Assembly (NCBI RefSeq): GCF_009812035.1
Contig: NZ_VZIZ01000002.1
Location: forward strand, 1 to 64,000
Source of the DNA: Psychrobacter nivimaris
GTDB lineage: Bacteria; Pseudomonadota; Gammaproteobacteria; Pseudomonadales; Moraxellaceae
Reading direction: 5' to 3'
Length of the DNA stretch: 64,000 nt
The first letter of the stretch is position 1, and the number at the start of each line of letters is the position of its first letter. Shown piece after piece: positions 44,554 to 48,508 of the stretch. Made by a program: the position numbers and the translations under genes. The notes beneath the pieces were generated by a model that ran no database searches, had not been told where the DNA came from, and was given only the letters and a program-made list of their open reading frames with translations.

Positions 44554-45369
44554 TCAGAGCAACCCTTTATATAAGAAGTAACAGCCTACGACAGTCAACA
44601 GTACCGCAAAGCATTTTTTCAGCAACTGTGGCGATAATGCGTGAGCGACTTTTGCGCCTATCTTGGCGGTGAAAAAGCTCATGATGCTAATGCCTAAAAA
44701 AGCATAGATATGGACAAAGCCAATCGTATTGGGCACGTCGACTTGCGCTTGCATGCCAAAGAACATAAATCCTAGCGCACCTGCAATGGCGATAGGTAAA
44801 CCACAAGCGGCTGAGGTTCCAACGGCTTTTTGCATCACCACACCGTAACGTGTGAGATAAGGTACGGTTAAGCTACCACCGCCAATCCCAAAAATAGCAG
44901 AAGCAATACCGATACCCGCCCCTGCTGCTAATTGCTTAGGCTTTGAAGGCAAAGCTATATGAACATTACCAGCATCGCTATTTGCTTTCTTTTTACCACC
45001 CATAAACATTTTATAAGCGACCCAAAGCAAAAACACACCAACAATCAACTGCAGATATAAACCAGATATCTGTCCTGCGATCCCTGCTCCTAAAAAGCAG
45101 CCTATTGCTAAGCCTGGCGTCAGATTTTTAAAGACAGGCCACATGACTGCGCCTTTCTTATTATGCGCCATGAGCGAGCTTATGGACGTGACAATAATGG
45201 TTGCCAGTGAAGTACCCAAGGCCAAGTGCATAATACTGTCAGGACTGTAACCCATTTGCGTAAAGACAATAAATAGCAGTGGTACGATAATAGTCCCACC
45301 GCCCACTCCAAATAGCCCCGCAGCAAATCCTGCTAGCGCCCCTATTACTAAAAAAGTTATTAATTCCAC
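44554..45369 (-). CDS. TauE/SafE family sulfite/anion exporter
   Basis: Membrane protein of 271 residues with the TauE/SafE twin-repeat layout: GALAGFAAGLFGVGGGTIIVPLL near the N-terminus and GIGIASAIFGIGGGSLTVPYL in the second half, about eight helices in total. The family moves sulfite, sulfoacetate and related organosulfur anions. The start codon is GTG. It is the last of four same-strand genes after DUF1852, the core methionine synthase and the flavin reductase (113-bp gap), so a sulfur-metabolic role is likely, but its substrate is not shown. Confidence 0.9.
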   Translation of the reverse strand: MELITFLVIGALAGFAAGLFGVGGGTIIVPLLFIVFTQMGYSPDSIMHLALGTSLATIIVTSISSLMAHNKKGAVMWPVFKNLTPGLAIGCFLGAGIAGQISGLYLQLIVGVFLLWVAYKMFMGGKKKANSDAGNVHIALPSKPKQLAAGAGIGIASAIFGIGGGSLTVPYLTRYGVVMQKAVGTSAACGLPIAIAGALGFMFFGMQAQVDVPNTIGFVHIYAFLGISIMSFFTAKIGAKVAHALSPQLLKKCFAVLLTVVGCYFLYKGLL

Positions 45370-45482: not shown

Positions 45483-45998
45483 TTAAATAAGTTCCACTTG
45501 CCCCACTCTAGAGTAGGCACGGTTAAAGTAAACCAACCCTTCATCAGTGCCGCCTTGTGGCTCAGCCTGATTGATGGCGACAATGCGGCACATAAAGACG
45601 CTATGCGTGCCGACTTCTTGAATTTGTTCAATCTCACAATCAAAGCTGACCAAGGCATCCTCCAGTACAGGAGCGCCTGTTTGTAATTGTGTCCAAGAAC
45701 CATATTCAAACCGTTCTTCTGAACACAATTTAGAGGCAAAAGCATTGGACAGCTGCTCATGTTGCGCGCCTAACACATTGACACTTAAAATCTTGTTTTC
45801 CAGAAAGTAGCCATGTGACCGAGACGTTTGATTCATACAGACAAGCAAGGTCGGCGGTGTGTCTGTGACACTACATACTGCCGATGCTGTAAACCCATGC
45901 ATGCCCGTCGCACCTGCTGTGGTCACCACATTGACCGCAGTCGTTAGCAAAGACATGGCATCTCTAAAGTCGGTCGCGTCAATCCTATCTTTAATCAT
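45483..45998 (-). CDS. Flavin reductase family protein (FMN-dependent)
   Basis: Flavin reductase of the HpaC/RutF type, 171 residues, expected to make reduced FMN or FAD from NAD(P)H. Family blocks: FRDAMSLLTTAVNVVTTAG (about 11-29), HGFTASAVCSVTDTPPTLLVCMN with the flavin-binding T/S-A-S motif, ILSVNVLGAQHEQLSNAFAS and the C-terminal GTHSVFMCRIVAI and YFNRAYSRVG. Such enzymes usually supply a partner monooxygenase. The direct neighbours are the core methionine synthase and DUF1852, which makes DUF1852 the obvious candidate partner; no other oxygenase is encoded in this cluster. The gap to mesD is 104 bp and holds a 9-bp hairpin (46066-46089) without T-run. Confidence 0.92.
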   Translation of the reverse strand: MIKDRIDATDFRDAMSLLTTAVNVVTTAGATGMHGFTASAVCSVTDTPPTLLVCMNQTSRSHGYFLENKILSVNVLGAQHEQLSNAFASKLCSEERFEYGSWTQLQTGAPVLEDALVSFDCEIEQIQEVGTHSVFMCRIVAINQAEPQGGTDEGLVYFNRAYSRVGQVELI

Positions 45999-46103
45999 TG
46001 CTTCAATCCCGAGAAACGTTAAAAAATAACGTTAAAAAATTGTGCTTCAATTTTAGTTTTGCAAGGGAAATTCTTTAAATAGAATTTCCTAAACGGCTCA
46101 ACT

Positions 46104-47132
46104 CTAAGCAGTCAGTTCTTGACGAACGATTTGAGCACCAGCGCTTAAGGCCGCGAGCTTACCACGTGCGACTTGGCGAGACAAAGGTGCCATGCCGCAG
46201 TTAGTGGCAGGATACAGCTTGTCAGCATCGACAAATTGTAGCGCTTTGCGTAGCGTATCTGCTACCTCTTCTGGTGTCTCGATAGTGTTGGTTGCCACAT
46301 CAATGGCACCGACCATCACTTTTTTACCACGAATCAATTCAATCAGATCCATAGGTACACGTGAGTTTTGACACTCAAGTGAGACAATATCGATTTTCGA
46401 CTGTTGCAATTTAGGGAACGCTTTTTCGTATTCGCGCCACTCTGAACCCAGTGTCTTTTTCCAATCGGTATTGGCTTTGATGCCATAGCCGTAGCAAATA
46501 TGGACAGCTGTCTCACATTTTAGGCCTTCAATGGCGCGCTCTAAAGTTGCAATACCCCAGTCGTTCACATCATCAAAGAATACATTAAATGCTGGCTCAT
46601 CAAACTGGATAATATCGACGCCAGCCGCTTCTAATTCTTTTGCCTCTTGGTTCAGGATTTTAGCAAATTCCCAAGCCAATTTTTCACGGCTTTTATAATG
46701 ACCGTCATATAACGTATCAATCATCGTCATCGGCCCTGGCAACGCCCATTTGATTGGCTGATCAGTTTGCTGGCGTAAAAACTTGGCATCATCAACAAAC
46801 ACGGACTTCGGACGGCTCACCGCACCAACGACTGATGGCACGCTCGCATCATAGCGATTACGAATTTTGACCGTCTCACGCTTCTCAAAGTCGACACCAT
46901 CAAGGTGTTCGATGAACGTAGTCACAAAATGCTGACGGGTCTGCTCGCCATCACTGACAATATCAATCCCTGCATGCTGCTGCTCTTGCAATGATACACG
47001 CAGCGCATCTCGCTTGGCTTCAAGCAACTGCTCGCCCTCTAATGCCCAAGGTGACCAAATTTTCTCGGGTTCTGCTAGCCAAGAAGGTTTTGGTAAGCTG
47101 CCAGCGGTAGACGTCGGTAATAGTAGTTTCAT
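46104..47132 (-). CDS. mesD: Core (folate-independent) methionine synthase, MesD-like
   Basis: Protein of 342 residues equal to only the catalytic barrel of MetE; the N-terminal folate-binding half is absent. Zinc ligands expected of MetE are visible as H211 and C213 (HICYGYG), E253 (SLECQNSR) and C312 (TNCGMAPLSR), and homocysteine-binding motifs STAGSLPKP (about 8-16), SDGEQTRQHF (60-69) and QFDEPAF (176-182) are conserved. It should transfer a methyl group to homocysteine in the cytosol. Its neighbour is DUF1852, the published partner of the MesD family, which needs oxygen and neither methyl-folate nor cobalamin in genetic tests. That pairing, more than sequence, is why I call it MesD. DUF1852 lies 54 bp upstream and the flavin reductase just downstream. 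Confidence 0.9.
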   Translation of the reverse strand: MKLLLPTSTAGSLPKPSWLAEPEKIWSPWALEGEQLLEAKRDALRVSLQEQQHAGIDIVSDGEQTRQHFVTTFIEHLDGVDFEKRETVKIRNRYDASVPSVVGAVSRPKSVFVDDAKFLRQQTDQPIKWALPGPMTMIDTLYDGHYKSREKLAWEFAKILNQEAKELEAAGVDIIQFDEPAFNVFFDDVNDWGIATLERAIEGLKCETAVHICYGYGIKANTDWKKTLGSEWREYEKAFPKLQQSKIDIVSLECQNSRVPMDLIELIRGKKVMVGAIDVATNTIETPEEVADTLRKALQFVDADKLYPATNCGMAPLSRQVARGKLAALSAGAQIVRQELTA

Positions 47133-47186
47133 ACGATTTATCTTCTAATTAATTTATTTTTTATTATGTTGATGAGTGATGCTCAG

Positions 47187-48224
47187 TTAAGCGGCTTGCT
47201 TCCTAGACGTTTCTTTATCAGCAGCTTCTTTTTGAGCAGTATCGCCCGTTACATCATAGCTTGCAGCCCATTCCTCAAGGATTGTTTGATACGGCTTAAT
47301 AAAATGCGTCTCAGTAAATCTGCCTTGGGTCACTGCCATCTGACTGCGTTCGGCACGGTCATAGACCACTTGAGTCAATGAATAGTCTTGGTAGTTCAGG
47401 CTAGGTTGATATACTTGACCAGCGCTTGAATTGGCGTTGTAAATCTCAGGACGGTAGATCTTCTGAAAGGTCTCCATAGTACTGATTGCACTAATCAGCT
47501 CAAGATCGGTGTAATCACTGAGCAAGTCCCCTGCAAAATAAAATGCTAGCGGCGCGGCACTACCTTCAGGCTTAAAATAACGTACTGTTAATCCCATTTT
47601 ATGAAAATAGTCGTCGGTCAACGAGTATTCATCTTGCTTGTATTCAATGCCCAATACAGGATGTTGATTAACAGTACGATAGTAAGTCTTGCTGGTTGAC
47701 ACGCTCAGGCAAATCACAGGTTTTTTTTGAAAATGAGCGTTGTAAGCTTCTGAATTCAATAAGTATTGAAATAATTTTCCATGCAACTCACCAAAATTAT
47801 CTGGCGTTATGGATGCTAGGTTTTTGTCGCGATGCTCTGGTAACACAATACTAAAGTCATAATCACGCACATAAGAGGAGAAGCTGTTGCCAACCATACC
47901 GTCGATACGCTTGTTTTCTTTATGATCCACAATCGTGGTTTTTAGCGTTTCGATAATAGGAAACGTCTGACCATTGCCTTTAACATCTAGATCGACAGAG
48001 ATAATATCAACTTCAACAGAATAACGATCTGCTGTCAGATTGTCCCAATGCGCCAATGCATTGAATCGATTATTAATCATGGTTAACGTTTTGCGTAAGT
48101 TCTCTTGACGGTGCTCGCCGCGTGCCAAATTTGCAAAGTTAGTCGTCAAACGCGTGCTATCTGCAGGCTGATAGTTTTCGTCAAAACGAATGTGCTTAAT
48201 TGAACAATTGAATTCTTTACTCAT
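47187..48224 (-). CDS. DUF1852 family protein, MesD partner
   Basis: Protein of 345 residues of the DUF1852 family, no signal peptide or membrane segment. It begins FNCSIKHIRFDENY and has conserved-looking blocks NFANLARGEHRQENLRKTL (about 28-46), MVGNSFSSYVRDYDFSIVLPEH and a C-terminal RAERSQMAVTQGRFTETHFI. Published genetics in other aerobes show DUF1852 is required for MesD methionine synthase activity; its chemistry is unknown. I see no obvious cofactor motif (no Rossmann glycine loop, no CxxC). The next two genes encode MesD and a flavin reductase, so a reduced-flavin and O2-dependent reaction that yields the methyl donor is a fair hypothesis. The first gene of the unit, with a MetR-like box about 100 bp upstream. 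Confidence 0.9.
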   Translation of the reverse strand: MSKEFNCSIKHIRFDENYQPADSTRLTTNFANLARGEHRQENLRKTLTMINNRFNALAHWDNLTADRYSVEVDIISVDLDVKGNGQTFPIIETLKTTIVDHKENKRIDGMVGNSFSSYVRDYDFSIVLPEHRDKNLASITPDNFGELHGKLFQYLLNSEAYNAHFQKKPVICLSVSTSKTYYRTVNQHPVLGIEYKQDEYSLTDDYFHKMGLTVRYFKPEGSAAPLAFYFAGDLLSDYTDLELISAISTMETFQKIYRPEIYNANSSAGQVYQPSLNYQDYSLTQVVYDRAERSQMAVTQGRFTETHFIKPYQTILEEWAASYDVTGDTAQKEAADKETSRKQAA

Positions 48225-48278
48225 GGTGATCCGCTACCTTATTTATCTGAGATAAAACCAAATCTGTGTATGAGGTGA

Positions 48279-48306
48279 ATCATACCGAAATCTAAACATG
48301 AATAAA
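48279..48306 (-). promoter_or_regulatory. Candidate promoter of the DUF1852-mesD unit
   Basis: Read on the minus strand: TTTATT (48306-48301), 16-bp spacer, TATGAT (48284-48279). The -10 is good and the -35 poor, which would suit an activator-dependent promoter with the MetR-like palindrome 20 bp further upstream. Confidence 0.35.
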
Positions 48307-48325
48307 AACGATACAATTTAAACAT

Positions 48326-48346
48326 AAGATGAATTTTATTCATCTT
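48326..48346. promoter_or_regulatory. MetR-type palindrome upstream of DUF1852
   Basis: Perfect palindrome AAGATGAAT-TTT-ATTCATCTT with 9-bp arms. Its core at 48330-48342 is TGAATTTTATTCA, an exact match to the MetR consensus TGAA-NN-(T/A)-NN-TTCA. It lies 102-122 bp upstream of the DUF1852 start. MetR activates methionine synthase genes with homocysteine as coinducer in enterobacteria; use here is inferred. Confidence 0.6.
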
Positions 48347-48475
48347 CCTGAAACTTAGATATATAAAGGAAATTTAACAGCGGAATTTTTAAGGATTTAT
48401 TTAACGTACAACTAAGCCCTTCACACAATGGCAGCGAAGAGGCTTTTATACTGCTTAAGCATATTTTTAAGGCAT

Positions 48476-48508
48476 AAAAAAAGGATACCATCGTATCCTT
48501 TTTTTTGT
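48476..48508. terminator. Bidirectional terminator after the Acr1-like gene
   Basis: AAAAAAAGGATAC-CATC-GTATCCTTTTTTTT, with A- and T-tracts on both sides. It ends the acyl-CoA reductase transcript and so isolates the DUF1852 unit. Confidence 0.88.

Follow-up and report, generated by a model that had tools for sequence, protein, structure and literature searches.

The locus considered here lies in a stretch of 64,000 nucleotides from the cold-loving bacterium Psychrobacter nivimaris (contig NZ_VZIZ01000002.1, positions 1 to 64,000, hereafter the window) and comprises three minus-strand genes spanning 45483-48224, which the list of open reading frames (ORFs) and a Pfam scan identify as mesX, mesD and a PF01613 flavin reductase gene. 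The genome assembly amounts to 3.28 Mb in 52 contigs, with the cluster on contig 12. On the minus strand the order of transcription is mesX (47187-48224; 345 aa; DUF1852, PF08908, 577.3 bits, a family named "Putative oxygenase MesX" in Pfam), mesD (46104-47132; 342 aa), a core methionine synthase corresponding to the MetE catalytic domain only, a RutF-like flavin reductase of what is termed type A below (45483-45998; 171 aa; PF01613 Flavin_Reduct, 129.7 bits), and finally a gene for a tauE-family exporter (44554-45369; PF01925, 178 bits), the successive gaps being 54, 105 and 113 bp. A terminator scan of the window listed nothing terminator-like on the minus strand between mesX and mesD or between mesD and the reductase gene, and tauE, which follows the latter on the same strand, is likely part of the same operon. 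The arrangement of DUF1852, MesD and flavin reductase on a single strand, as proposed in the first-pass annotation of this DNA, is borne out by the ORFs, the Pfam matches and the short gaps of 54 and 105 bp.

The assignment of MesD is equally well supported. The protein matches PF01717 (Meth_synt_2) with 132.5 bits over residues 5-329 and the NCBIfam methionine synthase model NF006589 with 702 bits (cut-off 392), while the folate-domain family PF08267 yields a partial match only, at 20.7 bits and thus below its cut-off of 27. The zinc ligands H211, C213, E253 and C312 are kept in all 127 aligned MesD proteins, that of the window included, as are the homocysteine-site residues S12, E63 and D178, so that the initial description of a MetE catalytic-domain-only enzyme with all four zinc ligands is upheld by both Pfam and the alignment. 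Its nearest solved structure is 3RPD (663.7 bits), the entry to which Price et al. 2021 refer for MesD (PMC7857596; this and the other papers are cited from the parts of their text available). Profile searches of the contigs identified one PF01613 gene, one PF01717 gene, one MetH above the cut-off and one MetF genome-wide, and found no match to CobS. Since mesD is the sole PF01717 gene, the genome has no MetE, and no B12-independent methionine synthase other than MesD was found in it.

Much of the physiology of this system is already in print, as are its reductase neighbour and the flavin hypothesis, and the window supplies an instance from Psychrobacter. Price et al. (PMC7857596) reported that MesD requires MesX and O2, and neither MetF nor B12, with which the corresponding statement of the first-pass annotation agrees, and that mesD and mesX suffice in Escherichia coli with no co-cloned reductase. 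They also noted the frequent presence of a putative flavin reductase in the neighbourhood, predicted that MesX uses flavin and draws upon central metabolism, and left the methyl donor of MesD open. A 2008 paper on a model of Acinetobacter baylyi describes its ACIAD3523 mutant as B12-dependent (PMC2606687), two rhizosphere strains appear to escape N2O via MesD homologues (PMC13059711), and in a 2026 study of A. baumannii B12 lowers the DUF1852 gene at a log2 value of -8.3 and the flavin reductase at -2.5 (PMC12892962). The lowering of both mesX and the reductase lends support to a flavin link. The open-access literature, to which our search was confined (subscription papers and preprints lying outside it), yielded no later biochemistry of MesX, MesD or DUF1852 and no answer to the methyl-donor question.

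What the present comparison adds concerns first of all the identity of the neighbouring reductases. The mesXD pair itself is nearly constant: across 16 loci from beyond the close Psychrobacter relatives, identity to the window's proteins is 86-90% for MesD and 67-78% for MesX. The reductases beside it fall into four kinds. Among PF01613 proteins, type A (Moraxellaceae, Wohlfahrtiimonas) is 67-70% identical to the window reductase, type B (Rhizobium, Pseudochrobactrum and locus L084) 41-44%, and type C (members of the Burkholderiales, Nitrosomonas, Pseudomonas, a metagenome-assembled genome and family f23) 24-28%. The best NCBIfam model is RutF for types A and B and HsaB for type C, although the typing covered two type A proteins, one of three type B and three of eight type C, all of them below the cut-offs (the window reductase scores 201 bits against RutF, cut-off 255), as well as two of six MsuE proteins, both above. 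The nearest solved chain is 2r0x for type A and 3nfw for type C, and the score is no more than about 50 bits when either type is compared with the chain closest to the other. The fourth kind, MsuE, belongs to a flavodoxin-like family (PF03358) with no PF01613 match and adjoins mesX in six loci, in one of which it sits between mesX and mesD. Among these best models (RutF, HsaB and MsuE) are named reductase components of monooxygenases.

All 62 PF01613 neighbours are on the strand of mesD and downstream of it, with a median gap of 104.5 bp, and outside the Moraxellaceae, mesD apart, only PF01613 (11 loci) and MsuE (6) recur as same-strand families within 250 bp in at least 3 of 77 loci. In a MesX tree, the reductase label requires 13 changes, and for MsuE a minimum of three is imposed by branches with good support; this was a quick tree of 100 rows, in which every third of loci L032-L073 was kept and L095 dropped, and it counts changes rather than gains. 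In the same tree, the MesX proteins of three Moraxellaceae loci (L105, L063 and L075) group near those of type C loci, while their reductases are of type A; reductase type therefore tracks the host more than the MesX clade. Because four reductase types from two unrelated families stand beside a nearly constant mesXD pair, we read the neighbouring reductases not as one inherited gene, but as the apparent outcome of repeated recruitment of reduced-flavin suppliers. As judged from gene content and position, this pattern of co-location favours reduced flavin as a co-substrate of MesX.

Several observations weigh against this interpretation and must be set beside it, beginning with the frequency with which a reductase is found. 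Our nearest-relative set consisted of the best 80 of 595 confirmed loci, 50 from Moraxellaceae and 30 from elsewhere, and the even sample of the phylum comprised 398 genomes, 44 with mesX (43 besides the window's; L118, L145, L154 and L160 are shortened by contig ends). Three further samples contributed no neighbour counts: the window's class, with mesX in 7 of 369 genomes (one as a sub-threshold fragment, the other six already known), the class of genome G277 (3 of 385, two already known) and the family (107 of 149). mesD is near mesX in 78 of the 80 nearest-relative loci and in all 43 of the even sample. Of the 50 Moraxellaceae loci, 48 have a PF01613 gene close to mesX, the two misses being L043, which stops at a contig end, and L079, a mesX without mesD. 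Outside the Moraxellaceae, the nearest-relative set has PF01613 in 12 of 30 loci, to which MsuE adds two. In the even sample, PF01613 is near mesX in 2 of 43 loci (3 of 44 including the window), and PF01613 or MsuE in 6 of 43 (7 of 44), which leaves 37 of 44 loci with neither nearby, although a few of these are truncated where their contig stops and further kinds of reductase were not sought individually. None of the five plasmid loci counted (out of 209 plasmid records with a match; the fragment L117 was left out) has a PF01613 reductase. The first-pass annotation had suggested searching for the flavin reductase as a conserved neighbour across genomes and had taken its absence near the pair in most genomes to speak against a flavin role; since PF01613 is near only 3 of 44 even-sample loci, such absence is, as worded, what we find, and the conservation is limited to particular lineages. 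This particular reductase is thus not universal; nor is it obligatory, since MesD and MesX alone rescue E. coli with no co-cloned reductase, and the available text of PMC7857596 has no reductase among the genes it names as needed for methionine in Sphingomonas koreensis. Although a profile search found no PF01613 or MsuE gene in 801 kb of outer flank, as compared with 1025 kb of inner sequence, the profiles used for this control were derived from the mesXD neighbours themselves. Lastly, as described below, the predicted fold of MesX has no match at E 0.001 in the PDB.

A few individual loci depart from the common arrangement. Acinetobacter sp. S54 carries, at L079:7995-8972, a second mesX with neither mesD nor reductase beside it, the strain's other mesX (L073) having both, and G082:C1:2175963-2176446 holds pieces of a second, broken mesX in a genome with an intact copy elsewhere. 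In two Alcaligenes loci (L074:5468-7759 and L082:5442-7736), a MesD/MetE-like ORF of 763-764 aa, the size of a full-length MetE, lies immediately upstream of mesX-mesD on the same strand. Two IMG/VR contigs (L168:6001-8033 and L169:6001-8037) carry mesX-mesD beside phage-like genes, and the pair may be either bacterial DNA bordering a prophage or genes carried by the phage.

MesX itself belongs to a narrow family, with 60-99% identity to the window's protein over 78 relatives and the closest of them, among the best 80 of 595 loci, being Psychrobacter proteins at 98-99%. Exactly two histidines, H148 and H188, are at least 98% conserved in 129 MesX sequences, together with many Asp and Glu residues, and residues 109-125 and 253-265 form conserved segments. 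Neither Pfam nor NCBIfam matched it to a named oxygenase component, nor did the PDB significantly, where no sequence match was better than E 0.68. A structure of residues 1-325 predicted from a 79-sequence alignment has a mean predicted local distance difference test score (pLDDT) of 87.9 and a predicted template modelling score of 0.88, and this model has no match at E 0.001 in the PDB or among the viral models of BFVD; its best VIA-align match has a Z of 3.9 with a root-mean-square deviation of 4.8 over 124 aligned residues, and acetyltransferases are among the top rows, an outcome that argues against no particular fold family. An earlier model built from 17 sequences (pLDDT 70.7) gave weak matches, many of them to acetyltransferases and the best to a peptidase (Z 4.3), and was distrusted as a poor model. 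Because MesX has no detectable kinship to known flavin monooxygenases, it would be a new class if it is one.

The upstream region of mesX points to control by MetR. A palindrome at 48329-48343 on the minus strand, ATGAATAAAATTCAT, is a full match to the consensus ATGAA-N5-TTCAT of Leyn et al. 2014 (PMC4239095), who placed PF08908-metE2 in the MetR regulon. An alignment of 14 upstream regions reveals a second conserved block, ATCGTTTTTATTCATG (48297-48312, minus strand), possibly a second MetR site, and a conserved TATGAT at 48279-48284 on the same strand, which is likely the -10 element of the mesX promoter and is not among the elements listed by a consensus promoter scan. Of 25 Psychrobacter loci, 20 have the core TGAA-N5-TTCA at -112 to -143, and it occurs in 55 of 162 upstream regions as opposed to 1.6 expected by plain base shuffling, the 162 regions including repeat copies of the same locus and many near relatives. 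As the operator pattern has seven sites genome-wide versus five for a reversed control pattern, the motif alone is weak proof and the argument rests upon its conservation. The genome also encodes a MetR-like LysR protein (G000:C49:30437-31315, locus L170), which scores 211.7 bits to a MetR-like query as compared with 47.8 for the next LysR, and whose best NCBIfam model is MetR at 284.1 bits, below the cut-off of 382 and followed by the next model at 90.8. No TGAA-N5-TTCA box was found in the 3.9 kb locus of this gene. Many mesX loci have LysR genes in their vicinity, 34 in all, with 17 lying upstream in divergent orientation, and for the sole one scanned, that of L081, MetR was again the best model, below its cut-off. 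The cluster had been described as methionine-controlled, which fits the conserved MetR-type operator; however, since MetR responds to homocysteine (PMC4239095), homocysteine-controlled is the better guess. No Rfam riboswitch family reached its gathering score in the window. In the interval between a short-chain dehydrogenase/reductase gene and the mesX promoter region lies a terminator-like stem of 13 pairs, listed on the plus strand at 48476-48505, and a SAM-II match overlapping it (48446-48506) was set aside as sub-threshold (19.1 vs 44 bits).

Based upon these features, a MetR-controlled mesX-mesD-flavin reductase-tauE operon may be envisaged, which would make methionine with neither B12 nor methyl-folate. 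Others have shown for homologues that MesX and MesD let cells methylate homocysteine solely in the presence of O2. MesX would activate this O2 using reduced FMN or FAD diffusing from a reductase, for which the present comparison provides support, and would in that respect resemble the oxygenase partner in a two-component flavin monooxygenase, albeit with no detectable kinship to one. The oxidation would then cut a small central metabolite, leaving a methyl group on MesX or on a small carrier, and the zinc-bound homocysteine of MesD would accept it. Presumably, reduced flavin from anywhere in the cell would do, with the local reductase being a convenience rather than a fixed subunit, although it may matter more in this genome, where it is the only PF01613 gene; the apparent interchangeability of the reductases fits both a diffusing reduced flavin and the success of E. 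coli strains lacking this gene. MetR would switch the operon on when homocysteine accumulates, as for instance when MetH lacks B12. On comparative evidence, a flavin-using MesX within such a MetR-controlled, B12- and methyl-folate-free operon is the explanation we favour, and we consider it somewhat probable. The original suggestion that the reductase feeds MesX, which uses O2 to provide a methyl group for MesD, was in substance already in PMC7857596; its flavin link gains from the four reductase types, and the suggestion loses from a reductase that is sparse (3 of 44) and not obligatory and from the missing fold match. The broader proposition, that MesX founds a structurally new class of reduced-flavin oxygenases with interchangeable, unrelated reductases and an O2-dependent cleavage of a central metabolite that frees the methyl for MesD, is more tentative, and we are inclined to doubt it as a whole.

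Other explanations can account for parts of these data. MesX could be a metal-dependent oxygenase of the non-heme iron type, to whose metal the reductase, where present, merely gives electrons. H148 and H188, as the only histidines conserved to this degree, along with the many conserved Asp and Glu residues, are what a two-His-one-carboxylate site needs, and MesX matched no flavoprotein; however, it likewise matched no metal enzyme by PDB sequence or fold comparison, and we regard a metal site as unlikely. It is also conceivable that MesX needs no flavin and that the reductase is a bystander favoured near mesXD for some other reason, such as a shared regulator or sulfur metabolism. Its absence near most even-sample loci and from the E. 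coli construct would then be expected, and TauE recurs in a similarly repeated manner with no known mechanistic role. Against a bystander speaks the apparent recruitment, more than once, of four reductase types, among them an unrelated family and a gene placed between mesX and mesD; this reading appears to us less plausible still than a metal site.

A final alternative is that MesX transfers the methylene group of 5,10-methylene-folate and uses reduced flavin to reduce it, O2 being needed for something else. ThyX and TrmFO perform methylene transfer from 5,10-methylene-folate with reduction by reduced flavin. The genetics rule out 5-methyl-folate only, and a metF mutant would still contain 5,10-methylene-folate; in addition, genes resembling methylenetetrahydrofolate reductase (MTHFR) are found close to mesXD in 13 of 128 loci, and Paracoccus aminovorans has formate-tetrahydrofolate ligase and folD there. 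Most loci nevertheless have no MTHFR-like neighbour, none was co-cloned in E. coli, and the strict O2 need is left without explanation, on which ground PMC7857596 argues against methylene-folate. Of all the alternatives, we consider this the most improbable.

The remaining neighbours of mesXD are best treated as leads. A TauE-family gene is found close to mesX in 34 of 50 Moraxellaceae loci, 2 of 30 other nearest-relative loci and 10 of 43 even-sample loci, with 34 of these genes co-directional downstream, 6 divergent upstream and 5 convergent downstream; their sub-groups are about 31-49% identical to each other, as if TauE had been recruited beside mesXD more than once. Besides the window (44554-45369), examples include L123, L125, L128, L132, L139, L147, L149, L150, L154, L107 and L085. 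The MTHFR-like genes near the 13 loci, one of them just beyond the inner sequence around mesX, lack the N-terminal part of PF02219, the match starting only at about position 44-73 (L102 is below the Pfam cut-off), and examples are found at L065:6097-7500, L085:3012-4469, L122:3216-4694, L092:5437-6333 and L102:11071-11925. One group has PF12225 and, judging from the range of its match, is similar to ACIAD1783, an MTHFR-like protein discussed as a caveat in PMC7857596, the main text of which does not mention "TauE". The formate-tetrahydrofolate ligase and folD of P. aminovorans come after mesD. Both TauE and the MTHFR-like proteins are clues to a substrate or by-product and not explanations.

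If MesX does make methyl groups by oxygen chemistry, cells would possess a route to them outside folate and cobalamin, and a new oxygenase class would supply biological methyl groups by oxidation, with neither folate nor cobalamin involved. New here are the sparsity of the reductase in an even sample, the pattern of its recruitment, a MesX model with no PDB match, the Psychrobacter MetR operator and protein, and the recurrence of TauE and MTHFR-like genes. In kind, the system does not differ from those of A. baylyi (ACIAD3523/3524, with the reductase ACIAD3522) and S. koreensis, which have the same two proteins in the same order with a flavin reductase nearby and are B12-free; the A. baylyi locus (L068) shares 69% identity in MesX and 70% in the reductase, and what the window contributes is an example from Psychrobacter that has tauE and an operator of MetR type. 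The ATGAA-N5-TTCAT operator upstream of mesX is also that of the MetR regulon of Leyn et al., although the available part of their survey (PMC4239095), with four genomes in its table, reported MetR as absent from Moraxellaceae, whereas Psychrobacter has both an operator and a MetR-like protein. Like MetE, the cobalamin-independent methionine synthase, MesD has the catalytic domain and the zinc ligands; unlike MetE, it has no N-terminal folate domain above the cut-off, and its homologues require MesX and O2. The closest parallel to the proposed role of MesX is provided by two-component flavin monooxygenases, whose reductases include RutF, HpaC, HsaB and MsuE: as in these, a separate small reductase of this kind is encoded beside an O2-dependent enzyme at some mesX loci (48 of 50 in Moraxellaceae, 7 of 44 in the even sample with MsuE counted), but MesX matches no named oxygenase component in Pfam or NCBIfam and its predicted structure matches no PDB entry at E 0.001.

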